From: an uncultured Ruminococcus sp.
GTDB lineage: Bacteria > Bacillota > Clostridia > Oscillospirales > Acutalibacteraceae
Reading direction: 5' to 3'
DNA: 46,347 nt
Assembly (NCBI GenBank): GCA_902798365.1
Contig: CADBWP010000028.1
Span: 1-46,347 of the forward strand
The position numbers and the translations under genes are program-made. The notes beneath the pieces were generated by a model. That model searched no databases, was not told where the DNA came from, and saw nothing but the letters and a program-made list of their open reading frames with translations. Positions within the stretch are counted from its first letter, which is position 1, and each line of letters begins with the position of its first letter. Shown one piece after another: positions 15,404 through 42,707 of this stretch.

Positions 15404-18304
15404 ATGAAAGCTTGTAAAAAGGTTGTTGCGGTATTGTTATCGCTGCTGACGCTTCTGTCTGCCGCGTCCTTTGCGGCGGGGGCGATCACGTTTGAAAAGG
15501 ACGGCAATTTCTATTATCTGCGGTCGCACACGCCCACCACGGGAGACATCAACGTGCTTGTGGTAAGGGTCGGCTTTGCGGATTATCCGGTTGATGATGA
15601 AATGTATCCTGCCGACAGCGAGGAAACCATAGCGTCGTTTTTTGACGGCTCGCCCGACAGCATAAACGGGTTTTACCAAATCTCGTCCTACGGCAAGCTG
15701 CGCATGAGCTGCGACACGATCTTCACCTACAACGCGATGTATGACCGCAGGGAGTATGATGAAGAGAACTCAGACGCGATGTCCTCTCCCGAAGGCCTGA
15801 TGCTCGAGGCGTTCACCGCGTTTGACGGCGAGATCGATTTTGACAAATACGACAGCGACGGCGACGGATACCTTGACGTGGTCTGCTTTGATTACGCGGG
15901 TCCCACAAGCAGTTACGCATCCACCTGGTGGCCGCATGTAGACACGGCGGGCGACCTTGAATATGCCGGCAAAAAGGTGGATACATATACCTTCCTTAAA
16001 AACTTTGACGACGCGGGCTCCGAGGTTTTTATCCATGAATTCGGGCATATCTTCGGCGCAGCGGATTACTACTCCACCATGAACACCACACACCAAACCA
16101 TCATGTCGTGGGATATGATGTGCTCCAACGTCGGAGATCACGACGGCTTTACCAAGTGGAGCTACGGCTGGCTGGGTGACGACGACATCGAGTACGTTGA
16201 AAAATCAACCGAAGACAAAACCGTGACGCTGGCGCCCATTGAGACCGATTTGGGCGACGGCAAAAAAATAGCCGTGGTGGCGCCCTCAATAGACCGTTCA
16301 AACGCCTTTTTTAACGAGTACTTTCTTGTGGAGTACGACAGCGGCATAAAAAACAACGCCTCTGCCTTTGAAAAATACGGTGTTGAGCCGGGCTTCAGGA
16401 TCTTTCACGTTATCGCAGACACCGCCTTTGTCTCTCCCGATGAAATCATAGATTATACACATGACAATACAGAGCTTCGCTGCTGTCTGATTCACAACGT
16501 TAAAAACGAGGACAAATTCCCCGTAGAATCGTATTTTAAAGACAGCATATACAGAGAAGGCGATTCACTCACTCCCGAGGGCTGGCCTAACACGGGTATG
16601 CTTGCGGACGGCGTATATAACGGACTGTTCACGGGAATAAGCTTCACCGATTTTGTAACCGGCGACAACCCGTCGTTCAAGGTTAGCTTTTCGGACGAGC
16701 CCGTGTCCGACGAGCCCGTTGAGCTGACGCTTTCCTACGGAGAGCTCGGTGCCGACATGAAAATGACCGTAACGGGCGACAAGCCGCTCACCTGTGTTTC
16801 GCCCGATAAGGATAACGCTCCCTATCTGCTTGACGGCGACGGCAACAGGTTTCCGCTTGAGATGAAAAACGCGGACACCGGTGTGTATAACTTCACCCTT
16901 TATTATCAGCTCAATTATCCCACCATATCGCCCGACACCGAATACACCCTTGTTATTCCCGAGGGCAACCTTAAATACGGCTACAACAAAACCGTCCCCG
17001 AGTTCCGTCAGACGGTAAGATCCTCTCATTTCTTCTCTCCCGAGGCTATCGCAATCGTAAAGGCAGCCCCCCGCGGTTACACGCGCTCCACATTATTTGC
17101 CGTGACCGACAGCACCTACGGCATGATCTATGTGCCCATGTACAACGATACCTTACGCTGCCGCTTTGACGAATACAACCTCAACGGCGAAAGGGTATCG
17201 GGCTTTGAGTTTGAGCTTCCCGACTACAACACAACAAACAGCACGGTCTATAAGTGCATTGTAAGAACGCTCAACGACGGCAATTTCGCCCTTGAGCTCT
17301 GCACAATGGACAACACCTATTTTGTAAAGATCGACGGCAGCGGAAACATCCTCAGCGATGTGTATTCCGTTACGGACAACGCCGTATATGGTTATTCCGA
17401 CTCGGTGTTCCAAATTGATTTTGACCTGTACAAGAACGGACTCTGCGCCAACCTCTATTCATCATCAGATCACAGGTATCTGTTTTTGAGCATAGACTTT
17501 GAGAACGCTCCCAAGTTTGAATACGATGACAGCTTTAAAAAATATTATTCCATAGACAGCGATACCTATATGGTTTCAAAAAGCGCGGACGGCAAAGACT
17601 GTCTGTATGCCTACGACGCCTCGGATGAGCTTTTGTTCACATGGGAGGTACCCGAGAATAAAACAATAGTCGGCGTCTTTGAGGATGACGGCAAAATATT
17701 TGTCCTGTATTACTACTATGACAAAAGCAAAATCGCTCACGTGATGAAGGCGCTTTTTGACAGGGACGGCACGCTGACAGAGGAAACCGACATAACCGAC
17801 GACGGAGAGCAGGCGACGCGTGAAATGTTTGTAAAAGCTGTTTCAACCGGCTCGGGCTATTATTCGGAGATAACGAACAGGCGCAGAAATAAGCTCCTTG
17901 CCTTTGACTCCGACTGGAAATACAAGGGCGAGATCGACCTCGGCGGCTACGACGATCCCGTTATAGTCGGAGTTTGCGGATTGTACGAGAGAACCGAATA
18001 CATAGACGGCGTGGGAATGGCAAACATCATTTTCCGCTTTAATGTGGGCGACTTTGAGATCGTGCCCGCCCGCGAGTCGGCTCTGCTGGGTGACGCGGAC
18101 GGCGACGGAAGCATCACCATAAATGACGCAACCCTCATTCAAAGAGCGTCGATAGATCTTGCAGAGCTTGACGACTTGCATACGCTGCTAGCCGACGTAA
18201 ACGGCGACGGCAGGGTCTCTATTCTCGACGTTACATGGGTGCAGAAATACCTTGCGGAATACAAGCTGCCGTACAAGATCGGCAGACCGGTTGAAAGCGC
18301 ATGA
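15404..18304 (+). CDS. Secreted M6-type metalloprotease with C-terminal dockerin
   Basis: The 966-residue protein starts with a signal peptide (about 1-27, KACKK then a hydrophobic stretch ending near AAGA). The catalytic region carries the zinc motif HEFGH at residues 211-215 followed by IFGAADYY, as in immune inhibitor A/M6 peptidases, and MSWDMMC (about 234-240) as a likely Met-turn. An Asp-rich YDSDGDGYLD near residue 150 may bind calcium. The large middle part (about 430-880) is beta-rich with no motif I recognise. Two dockerin type I repeats close the protein (DADGDGSITINDATLIQR and DVNGDGRVSILDVTWVQK, about 897-955), which should bind a cohesin on a scaffold or cell surface. The start at 15404 is preferred over 15395 because AAAAAGGATGG then has correct spacing. 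Confidence 0.9.
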   Translation: MKACKKVVAVLLSLLTLLSAASFAAGAITFEKDGNFYYLRSHTPTTGDINVLVVRVGFADYPVDDEMYPADSEETIASFFDGSPDSINGFYQISSYGKLRMSCDTIFTYNAMYDRREYDEENSDAMSSPEGLMLEAFTAFDGEIDFDKYDSDGDGYLDVVCFDYAGPTSSYASTWWPHVDTAGDLEYAGKKVDTYTFLKNFDDAGSEVFIHEFGHIFGAADYYSTMNTTHQTIMSWDMMCSNVGDHDGFTKWSYGWLGDDDIEYVEKSTEDKTVTLAPIETDLGDGKKIAVVAPSIDRSNAFFNEYFLVEYDSGIKNNASAFEKYGVEPGFRIFHVIADTAFVSPDEIIDYTHDNTELRCCLIHNVKNEDKFPVESYFKDSIYREGDSLTPEGWPNTGMLADGVYNGLFTGISFTDFVTGDNPSFKVSFSDEPVSDEPVELTLSYGELGADMKMTVTGDKPLTCVSPDKDNAPYLLDGDGNRFPLEMKNADTGVYNFTLYYQLNYPTISPDTEYTLVIPEGNLKYGYNKTVPEFRQTVRSSHFFSPEAIAIVKAAPRGYTRSTLFAVTDSTYGMIYVPMYNDTLRCRFDEYNLNGERVSGFEFELPDYNTTNSTVYKCIVRTLNDGNFALELCTMDNTYFVKIDGSGNILSDVYSVTDNAVYGYSDSVFQIDFDLYKNGLCANLYSSSDHRYLFLSIDFENAPKFEYDDSFKKYYSIDSDTYMVSKSADGKDCLYAYDASDELLFTWEVPENKTIVGVFEDDGKIFVLYYYYDKSKIAHVMKALFDRDGTLTEETDITDDGEQATREMFVKAVSTGSGYYSEITNRRRNKLLAFDSDWKYKGEIDLGGYDDPVIVGVCGLYERTEYIDGVGMANIIFRFNVGDFEIVPARESALLGDADGDGSITINDATLIQRASIDLAELDDLHTLLADVNGDGRVSILDVTWVQKYLAEYKLPYKIGRPVESA

Positions 18305-40496: not shown

Positions 40497-42707
40497 TTAT
40501 CCCAAAGCAACGCTGTATTCCGCTGCGAACTGCTGAATAAGCGTAGCGTCGGCTATGGTGACATTTTCGTCGCCGTCAACGTCGGCAGCCGCAAAGTATG
40601 CGCCGTTCAGGGGTTCATACTCGGCAATATGGCGCTGCACCGCCGTGACGTCGCGCACATCGACCACACCGTCGCCGTTGGCGTCGCCCTTGACGGGCAC
40701 GTCGATCGCCTGTGCCGACAGAAACATCCACAGCAACATTCTGCCGGAGGAATCGGTCACAGTTGCGTTTTTGATGTTGACAACGGTTTTATCATCAAAC
40801 CAGTAGCCAAAAGCGGGTTCGAGCATTAGGTCTGTATAATAAGTTTCGCCCGCTGCAAAGGTTCCCTCAAAAACGTCGTTATAGCCGTCGCTGTTCTCGT
40901 ACTGCCAGTAGGTATACTGATAGTCGTCCGGGGCATAAATCGTGTAGTGCGCGCCGGCTTCGGTGATTATAACGGGCGCGGGGGTAAGAAAATCGTTGAC
41001 CATGGTCACCGTGGTGCCTGCCACGGGCTTTTCAAGCGCGAGGCTGACGCTTTTAATTTTTGTGAAGAAGCAGGCATATACGGTCATGTCAGAGGTGACG
41101 GGAGTATCCAGCAGCGTTCCCGCGTCGTTATTGAATTCCTCATCATCGTTAAAATCCGCCAAAGGCTTTGTGGCGAGGTCGCGGAAAATGCGGTCTTCGT
41201 TTTCCATTGCGTCCAATGTTTCATAAACCCCATCATAATATACTGCCTCAAAGAATCGAGTGCCGTGCGCGGCAGTCACCGTCAGGGGCTCGCCGTTGCC
41301 GTCCAAATCGATCGTTATGGTGTGCCGAATCAATTCAAACACAGGGGTAAGCTCAACGTCGGACGACGGCATAACAAAGCTGTTGTTCTCTATGCTCACA
41401 TCGGCGCCTGCAATCTGCCAGCCGCTCAGGCAGTAATTCTCCTCGGGTGTTACGGTCAGGCTGACAATATCGCCGAGGTTGGCGCTGTTCGTTCCTGCGG
41501 TCACGGTTCCGTGCTCTGCCTGATTTACGGTAACGCTGTGCGGGGAGCCATACACATAGGTGACAAAGCGCACGGTGTCGCCCTTGTAGGCATAATCGCC
41601 CACGCTTACGATAAAGGTCACGGCGGCTTCGGTGCTTCTGCGGTAATCAAAGCTGAACCTGCCGTCCTCGTCGGTCGTTCTCGTCCAGTAGCCTGCGGAG
41701 CTGTCGGTGGTGATGTGTATTTCCGTATTCGGCAGGGGGAGGCCGTCGGGATAGGTGAGAGTGCCTTCAAGGGTGAAAAAAGTATCTATCTGTGCCTGAC
41801 GCGGAGCAGACGCGGTGAGAATAACGTCTGTCTGCGGCAGCACGGTAACGGGAGCAAGATACTCCGCGCCGCCCGTATCGCACTTATAGTAGAGCCGCAG
41901 GGTGTAATCCCCGGGTTCTGCATCCTCGGGCACGGTAACAGAGCAAACGATATTTAAGTCTCCGAAAAGTGAGAAGGTACTGCGGATACCCTCTGTCAAT
42001 ACCTCGCCGTCGTGAATCAGCTGATAATGGTAATTATCTCTGCTGACGGGTGTGCCGTCGATGCTGTTTGTAAGCAAGCCCTGCGCTCCGATAGTTTCGC
42101 CCGGATAAGCGGTTTCGTTGGCATACATGTTCACAAACGAGAATCCGACATAGGTGTCATAAAACACGGGTCTGTAGGTTTTGCCGAATTGATCGTAGCT
42201 CGCAAGGCTCCAGCTGTCAAAGAGAAATCTGCCCTCGGTGTCGCCGGGCTTTTCGGGTACAAGCTCAGTCTCGGGCTCGGGCTCTCCCGGGTACCATATT
42301 TTTTCGTCAAGCACGGAGCCGTCGCCGTTCAGCCAGGTCACGCTGTAGTCATCGTCGTCATCGTCGCGGGTCCTGAGTACCAGCTGAAGCGTGCTTTCGT
42401 TGTGAATGTTGTAATCGGCGAGCGTTCTGCCGTCCTCCAGCCAGTTGCCGTTAAACATCAGCCGCTGCTGATCGGGCGGAAGCCCTTCCTTGTCCTGTAT
42501 CTTCTGCTTGATGTTTTCAATGGTGTCGCTGCCATCCACCTCTAAGGTGAGGGCTTTTCCCGACAGCATGCGCACGAATATCTGCATGCCCACAGGCTCC
42601 GAGCCTGCCGAGGCTGCGCCTGCCGACAGCGGAAAAGCGCCGAGCAGTATGCAAAGTGAAAGTGCAAAAGCTAAGATTTTTGCCAAGGTTTTACGCGTCT
42701 TTTTCAT
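40497..42707 (-). CDS. Secreted ubiquitin-domain protein with C-terminal dockerin
   Basis: This 736-residue exported protein has a signal peptide (about 1-32, cleaved near AGAA-S), then a ubiquitin-like domain (residues 41-116) starting MQIFV and matching eukaryotic ubiquitin at 55 of 76 positions by hand alignment. A run of six Asp follows directly. Then come a short beta-repeat ([21 protein letters not shown]), two Ig/carboxypeptidase-regulatory-like beta domains (about 180-270 and 285-375), and an InlB B-repeat-like unit (about 385-450). A dockerin pair closes the protein ([19 protein letters not shown] and [18 protein letters not shown], about 673-733). The ATG at 42707 follows AAGGAGG. 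Ubiquitin in a bacterial extracellular protein suggests origin from a eukaryote; its role is unknown. Confidence 0.9.
42360..42587 (-). other. Ubiquitin domain within secreted protein
   Basis: Codons 41-116. Conserved with ubiquitin: Lys11, Lys27, Lys29, Lys33, Leu8, Val70, Arg42, Arg72, and the blocks KIQDKEG, PPDQQRL and LEDGRTL. Changed: Lys6 to Arg, Lys48 to Asn, Lys63 to Asn, Ile44 to Met, His68 to Gln, Gly75-Gly76 to Asp-Asp. It therefore lacks the C-terminal diglycine needed for conjugation and the two main chain-forming lysines. Confidence 0.92.

Follow-up and report, generated by a model that had tools for sequence, protein, structure and literature searches.

The window analysed here is a 46,347-nucleotide stretch of DNA (contig CADBWP010000028.1, positions 1 to 46,347, of GenBank assembly GCA_902798365.1) from an uncultured Ruminococcus sp. 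of the family Acutalibacteraceae. On its minus strand (40497..42707) it encodes a secreted modular protein of 736 amino acids, delimited by its open frame and a profile scan, which comprises a signal peptide, a ubiquitin domain, a body with an InlB-type repeat, and a dockerin. We lean towards the interpretation that this gene encodes a captured ubiquitin that cannot be conjugated and is displayed for recognition or antagonism, with the BfUbb protein of Bacteroides fragilis as its closest known counterpart; the function is one that we infer. The wider pattern, in which many bacteria carry ubiquitin on proteins that are secreted and probably held at the surface, with strong selection in this genus, where it was estimated, is of greater interest than the window copy itself.

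The ubiquitin domain of the window gene

An earlier note, made from the sequence alone, described 76 residues that align without gaps to ubiquitin, 55 of them identical, and this description held, coordinates included. Residues 41-116 of the protein (42360..42587, minus strand) match human ubiquitin at 55 of 76 positions without a gap, residues 1-74 of the human reference agreeing with the PDB alignment. The match is highly significant both for the Pfam family PF00240 (E-value 2.9e-26, with 91.5 bits where the cut-off is 25.4) and in phmmer searches against single-copy PDB ubiquitin chains (E-value about 4e-32), and a structure predicted from an alignment of 33 bacterial domains adopts the ubiquitin fold, with a predicted local distance difference test score (pLDDT) of 87.5. 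The 50 PDB matches listed for this model are ubiquitin chains or complexes, with template modelling (TM) scores of 0.91-0.98 in 49 of them and 0.31 in one. Two of the checks that the note had called for, of significance and of structure, came out in its favour, and chance resemblance of the domain to ubiquitin is excluded.

The domain shares 55 of 76 residues and its fold with eukaryotic ubiquitin, but differs in lacking Gly75-Gly76, Lys48 and Lys63, in being exported, and in being fused at its C terminus. The individual changes had been read correctly (I44M, K48N, K63N, G75D and G76D, with Leu8 and Val70 kept). The accompanying claim that exactly the conjugation and chain-forming residues are altered was right for the residues named but selective, as 21 positions differ from human ubiquitin, 16 beyond these five, and they include Ala46, Gln49 and His68 of the Ile44 face. 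Because this face is remodelled at positions 44, 46, 48, 49 and 68, the partner of the window ubiquitin may have shifted. Conjugation requires a C-terminal Gly-Gly that is free or exposed by cleavage; here Asp-Asp takes its place and the chain runs on through an aspartate run (residues 117-120; 42348..42359, minus strand) that extends Asp75-Asp76 and forms a linker to the body. The conjugating-enzyme family PF00179 has no match in the organism's own genome (86% complete) or in any of 14 control genomes, E1 and deubiquitinase families lying outside this search. If displayed facing outward and not activatable, the window ubiquitin could act only by binding.

The signal peptide (residues 1-31; 42615..42707, minus strand) was judged by eye to be of Gram-positive type, with a positive start, a hydrophobic core and a likely cleavage site after AGA. 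About nine residues of spacer separate this site from Met1 of the ubiquitin, and the statement that the domain stands directly after the signal peptide was therefore nearly right. A body of 620 residues, dockerin included, follows the ubiquitin.

The window comes from a draft genome of 2.03 Mb whose incompleteness invites the question of eukaryotic contamination, mis-binned sequence or a decaying, functionless import, and near-authentic copies with Gly-Gly found elsewhere (L031, L035 and L059) may, in our judgement, be contaminants. For the window gene such explanations are in effect refuted: one open frame joins the ubiquitin to a bacterial signal peptide and a dockerin, the surrounding 46-kb contig carries FeoA, FeoB, a GNAT enzyme, an iron-dependent repressor and a histidine kinase, relatives lie near rpsI and gatB, a ubiquitin family protein is encoded on a complete plasmid from Ruminococcus albus 7, and the domain is under strong purifying selection. 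The G+C content is 0.544 both in the ubiquitin part and in the rest of the gene.

Recurrence and purifying selection in the genus

The earlier note took such a close bacterial match to be rare, a view that the surveys do not support. One scan of bacterial and archaeal genomes yielded 76 loci at 44-78% identity in many phyla, and a profile search placed PF00240 at 41 sites spread over 33 of the 161 genus genomes, in 20 of 398 genomes drawn from the family and in 5 of 398 drawn from the phylum, the organism's own genome being included each time. The four other phylum matches are one near-ubiquitin (G722) and three weak ones; with the own genome left out, the genus is enriched relative to the phylum with an odds ratio of 24.6 (Fisher p 8e-15). 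Residue counts for the genus and family derive from this profile search. Site counts left out gapped or incomplete segments and copies with fewer than 55/76 identities (genus) or fewer than 44 (other sets), and five profile matches (L017-L020 and L023) that had no BLAST match to ubiquitin were dropped.

Gly-Gly is present in none of 24 distinct genus copies and Gly76 in three, and Lys48 is kept in 21, Lys63 in 22 and Ile44 in 23; the window copy alone has lost Lys48 and Lys63 jointly. As read from these sequences, loss of Gly-Gly is the rule in the genus and loss of the two lysines is private to the window, so that of the linked loss proposed in the earlier note the first part is general and the second is not. 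The proposal of a displayed module rather than a conjugated tag gains from the same counts and from the dockerin, which offers a route to display.

Nine relatives were scanned for domains, and seven of them consist of ubiquitin and dockerin with otherwise only EF-hand matches on the dockerin loops, a hydrophobic signal preceding the ubiquitin in each; of the other two, one lacks a dockerin and the other carries a large body of unrecognised sequence ahead of it. The ubiquitin-dockerin proteins are 170-210 residues long, and the genes near them are core bacterial ones, among them rpsI, gatB, NFACT and an HtrA-type protease. Relatives of the window body also occur in the genus in two forms, one in which InlB-type repeats replace the ubiquitin (L102-L105, about 39-45% identity) and one with near-authentic ubiquitin in front (L108, L111 and L112), and ubiquitin is therefore a swappable front module. 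Longer genus relatives hold a divergent ubiquitin-like domain inside, of which the second half is best kept, typically as QRLIFAGKQLED.KTLAEYNI.KESTIHL. Divergent internal domains of this kind were seen in the long secreted proteins L167-L176, L178 and L180, L175 excepted, the second half being much better kept than the first in most.

Selection was estimated as the ratio of nonsynonymous to synonymous substitution rates (dN/dS). For eight genus proteins with alignable bodies, the ubiquitin gave 0.03-0.12 in 26 of 28 pairs (the remaining two gave 0 and 0.28, at dS values of 0.06 and 0.02), against 0.22-0.47 for the rest of the same eight proteins. Genus copies other than that of the window had a median of 0.07 (97 usable pairs), and comparisons of the window copy with them gave 0.06-0.16 in 15 of 23 cases, eight being saturated and several near saturation. 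In the genus, purifying selection thus acts more strongly on the ubiquitin than on the remainder of the proteins that carry it. Divided by site class (51-52 pairs), with lists of Ile44-face and surface residues that were taken as given rather than computed, dN/dS was 0.06 in the core, 0.09 on the general surface and 0.15-0.16 on the Ile44 face.

These values bear on whether the domain is a passive building block, a stable fold serving as end cap or spacer of gut surface proteins. Ubiquitin has a very stable, protease-resistant fold, and a passive role would suit its exchange for InlB-type repeats in the body relatives, its divergent forms in long secreted relatives, its many different partner domains and an Ile44 face without special conservation. 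However, the general surface is constrained nearly as strongly as the core, both falling below the rest of the proteins, which is more than a mere spacer would need, and the seven proteins that are little but ubiquitin and dockerin offer nothing to cap or space. We regard a purely passive role as unlikely, while granting it real weight.

The site classes also bear on a mimic or decoy aimed at ubiquitin-binding proteins of eukaryotes, whether rumen protozoa, fungi or the animal host, in which the loss of Gly76 would also keep deubiquitinases from cutting the display off. All of Leu8, Ile44, His68 and Val70 are kept in 21 of the 24 genus copies, and Gly76 is lost in 21 and Gly-Gly in all 24, as a decoy would have it; the inhibition of ubiquitination by BfUbb in vitro, discussed below, points the same way. 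The window copy, however, has lost Ile44, His68, Lys48 and Lys63, many carriers are free-living, judging by their names, and there is no apparent route into the eukaryotic cytosol. Moreover, of the three classes it is the Ile44 face that shows the highest dN/dS; as it is not the most constrained part, a decoy for eukaryotic receptors is disfavoured, and we consider it improbable. The reading, after the earlier note, that recognition through the Ile44 patch is what has been preserved is not supported by the same values. Special conservation of the Ile44 face was itself considered and dropped, as its entropy in the genus is below that of the other surface (p 0.13, or 0.048 without the window copy; 0.49 in eight family copies) but its dN/dS is higher.

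Probable capture and spread of ubiquitin among bacteria

The closest bacterial copies share 72-73 of their 76 residues with human ubiquitin, the value of 73 coming from the isolate Rhodobacter amnigenus (L039), while within the genus the highest count is 67 of 76. In both trees that were built, the eukaryotic ubiquitins fall among the bacterial ones. These identities and this intermixing support, at the level of sequence comparison, a capture of eukaryotic ubiquitin by bacteria. The smaller tree groups the window domain with 18 genus copies (93/88, not starred), and other copies from the genus and family form further groups, so that the family may harbour several lineages of the module. As the window domain groups with genus copies, though without strong support, an earlier capture was probably followed by inheritance or by passage between relatives. 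The transfer from a eukaryote proposed in the earlier note is therefore upheld as regards the eukaryotic type of the ubiquitin and not as regards direct transfer into this lineage. A position beside an Oscillospiraceae copy (L027), found in the free tree with support 80, was dropped; grouping with the 18 genus copies raises the log-likelihood by 23.2. The larger tree (116 ubiquitin sequences, 72 columns) cannot date or source the transfer because only 5 of its 111 inner branches are starred, and 72 columns are too few to resolve the number or direction of later transfers.

An old bacterial ubiquitin-like protein that owes nothing to eukaryotes would account for the many bacterial copies, and it can draw on the poor resolution of the 72-column trees and on a single eukaryotic clade that the smaller tree does not reject (p 0.27). 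Set against the near-complete identities with human ubiquitin, in the genus and still more in other bacteria, the mixing of eukaryotic with bacterial sequences and the patchy distribution, this origin appears very improbable.

Named isolates among the 76 loci include Conexibacter, R. amnigenus, Cellulomonas algicola, Rhodoferax lacus, Paenibacillus cellulositrophicus and Verrucomicrobia bacterium IMCC26134, the last two represented by complete genomes. The wider scan used exact peptides, and residue counts in this set are therefore biased; Gln28 was rejected as a bacterial signature, since 69 of the 76 segments hold KQKIQDKE owing to the scan itself. Under a permissive rule applied with no control, a hydrophobic stretch with an AxA-type site directly precedes Met1 of the ubiquitin in 46 of 78 wider proteins. 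Domains were scanned in 58 of 81 candidate proteins, a selection without additional copies from one locus, incomplete or doubtful proteins and some others. Anchors in these 58 proteins of other lineages comprise autotransporter barrels (7), IPTL-CTERM (7 by NCBIfam, 6 by Pfam), SLH (5) and type IX tails (2), and choice-of-anchor U (6) and fibronectin III (8) also occur, with overlaps between groups possible. Among the 25 families listed out of 38 from NCBIfam, rad23 is the sole one to match all 58; where its scores were inspected, they fell well short of the cut-off. Phage records gave no relative, viral contigs one weak relative (L118, 44%) and plasmids two.

From these anchors a broader conjecture may be framed, which we put forward tentatively and as rather doubtful: many phyla would have captured eukaryotic ubiquitin and displayed it on the cell surface by the anchors of their own lineages (dockerin, autotransporter, IPTL-CTERM, S-layer domain or type IX tail), where it would serve against other microbes, either as a weapon that depends on contact or as a badge for recognition, with BfUbb as the released and already characterised member.

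Some loci of the wider scan have other arrangements. Mostly in Actinomycetota, L040, L045, L050, L063, L070 and L084 carry tandem genes, most of which open with ubiquitin and have no signal peptide as read; such genes, with a TGVVTYQ-type motif after the ubiquitin, are probably another system. In the proteobacterial copies L037, L038, L043, L044, L060, L067 and L073 the ubiquitin does not start until 57-73 residues into the protein, and the hydrophobic signal is preceded by additional sequence that in many cases includes an 'F.S.A'-like segment. Near-ubiquitin is also present in archaeal drafts (L030, L062 and L077; Methanothrix, Methanosarcinales), in L030 within a 1493-residue protein with repeats that look SdrD-like.

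Probable surface display and possible use

The earlier note had seen a secreted ubiquitin protein and had left unreported its divergent InlB B-repeat domain (Flg_new_2 in Pfam, residues 390-460; 41328..41540, minus strand) and its type I dockerin (residues 673-725; 40533..40691, minus strand; 40.6 bits in Pfam against a cut-off of 22.9), for which cohesin attachment is predicted. A carboxypeptidase regulatory-like stretch (residues 312-358; 41634..41774, minus strand) scores below the Pfam cut-off (26.9 against 32.3 bits). Cellulosome-type dockerin proteins likewise have a signal peptide, a modular body, a C-terminal type I dockerin and cohesins in the genome; the window protein differs in that the Pfam scan recognised no enzyme or carbohydrate-binding domain in it and in that its N-terminal module is ubiquitin. 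The organism's own genome has 51 dockerin places and 7 cohesin places, 6 of the latter above the cut-off, and two cohesin proteins (L113 402-1328 and L116 1060-1944) have, by eye, a likely C-terminal membrane anchor. A cohesin match was also found in 58 of 60 genus genomes drawn. By means of its dockerin the window protein is probably docked on a cell-surface cohesin. The window holds a second dockerin, within a 972-residue open frame (18086-18253, plus strand).

BfUbb is reported to drive antagonism between strains of B. fragilis and to be potent when the mature protein is made synthetically (PMC5705921), and it lacks the terminal Gly-Gly and inhibits ubiquitination in vitro (PMC3352274). The two reports describe a bacterial, eukaryotic-type ubiquitin with a signal peptide that is attributed to inter-kingdom transfer and found in some strains only (PMC3352274, PMC5705921), in all of which the window protein resembles it. 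BfUbb, however, is a free 76-residue mature protein that starts exactly at Met1 (PMC3352274, PMC5705921), whereas the window domain is fused and follows a short spacer, and antibacterial activity has been shown for BfUbb only. The signal peptide and the ubiquitin without Gly-Gly are thus common to both, and the free single domain with a mature end at Met1 is not. A Bacteroides copy (L089) is 55% identical to the window domain, below human ubiquitin (55/76, 72%). A bacterial prolyl isomerase is reportedly the target of BfUbb.

Genome G093, of the same family, carries four tandem small genes (L188:8497-10003, minus strand), each with a bacteriocin-type leader, followed by a ubiquitin-like domain. 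The leader motif is presumably of the double-glycine type, and its matches lie below the NCBIfam cut-offs. Three of the four genes exceed the PF00240 cut-off, one barely, and the genome has one Peptidase_C39 elsewhere; by eye, the genes sit between apparent leuS and ribosomal protein genes.

Within our preferred interpretation, and overlapping it as a sub-case, the protein could be a BfUbb-type antibacterial ubiquitin that poisons or inhibits related bacteria while tethered by its dockerin instead of released. The precedent of BfUbb, the leaders and Peptidase_C39 of G093 and the patchy spread through the genus all speak for this, but the window domain is fused and probably anchored where BfUbb is free, no candidate immunity gene was seen within the short flanks beside genus copies, and the Bacteroides copy is more distant from the window domain than human ubiquitin is. 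We treat this more specific role as possible but doubtful.

More generally, the proposed course begins with an earlier horizontal capture of ubiquitin from a eukaryote, not necessarily by the window lineage, as identities and trees suggest. The signal peptide would then export the protein, and the dockerin would dock it on a surface-held cohesin, both domains being present and their pairing predicted. With Gly-Gly gone and the chain continuing, established ubiquitin chemistry implies that the C terminus would not be activated. The displayed ubiquitin would be kept, by the selection seen in the genus, as an extracellular recognition module and not as a modifier. By analogy, its likeliest use would lie among microbes, in recognition or in antagonism at contact or short range, and less in manipulating an animal host, because of the BfUbb precedent and the tandem genes of G093 with bacteriocin-type leaders.

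Several observations weigh against a recognition module. No PF00240 match occurs in 128 of the 161 genus genomes, and ubiquitin is dispensable in the family of window-body proteins, as L102-L105 carry InlB-type repeats instead. The divergent domains within long secreted relatives fit a plain building block equally well. The Ile44 face is the least conserved site class in the genus and, in the wider, pattern-selected set, more variable than the other surface. At three syntenic groups of ubiquitin-dockerin genes (L149/L157/L163, L150/L152/L158 and L153/L154; flanks of about 1-3 kb) no common neighbour or candidate immunity gene was found, the ubiquitin itself alone being common to all. Of the 78 wider proteins, 19 leave no more than five residues ahead of the ubiquitin and so have no signal peptide as read. 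The pairing of dockerin with cohesin is a prediction from domains, and no partner, target or activity is on record for any ruminococcal copy. In a comparison of titles, which leaves subscription literature mostly uncovered, none among the matches listed joins ubiquitin to dockerins or to the surface anchors described here.

A related protein is available from a named strain. The 'ubiquitin family protein' of R. albus 7 (WP_013483628.1), encoded on the complete plasmid pRUMAL01, resembles the window protein in having a signal peptide followed by near-ubiquitin without Gly-Gly, but it has no dockerin. Its C-terminal part resembles, by eye, repeated secreted proteins encoded alongside, and one of its neighbours gives a spore-coat-U match below the cut-off. 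The surrounding cluster (L187:383-7273) encodes secreted proteins that share a 'Y.VTIPA' stretch, one of them ubiquitin-capped, together with a dockerin protein, a PI-PLC-X protein and one whose NPATG end looks, by eye, sortase-like.

Ubiquitin is the textbook signal of eukaryotes, and BfUbb is the one characterised bacterial case in the literature that we found. If it is true that ubiquitin repeatedly became an extracellular module of bacteria, nearly fixed by selection, then it would have a job outside the cell that does without conjugation. The small ubiquitin-dockerin proteins and the R. albus 7 copy make such an extracellular role testable with proteins of modest size and in a named strain.
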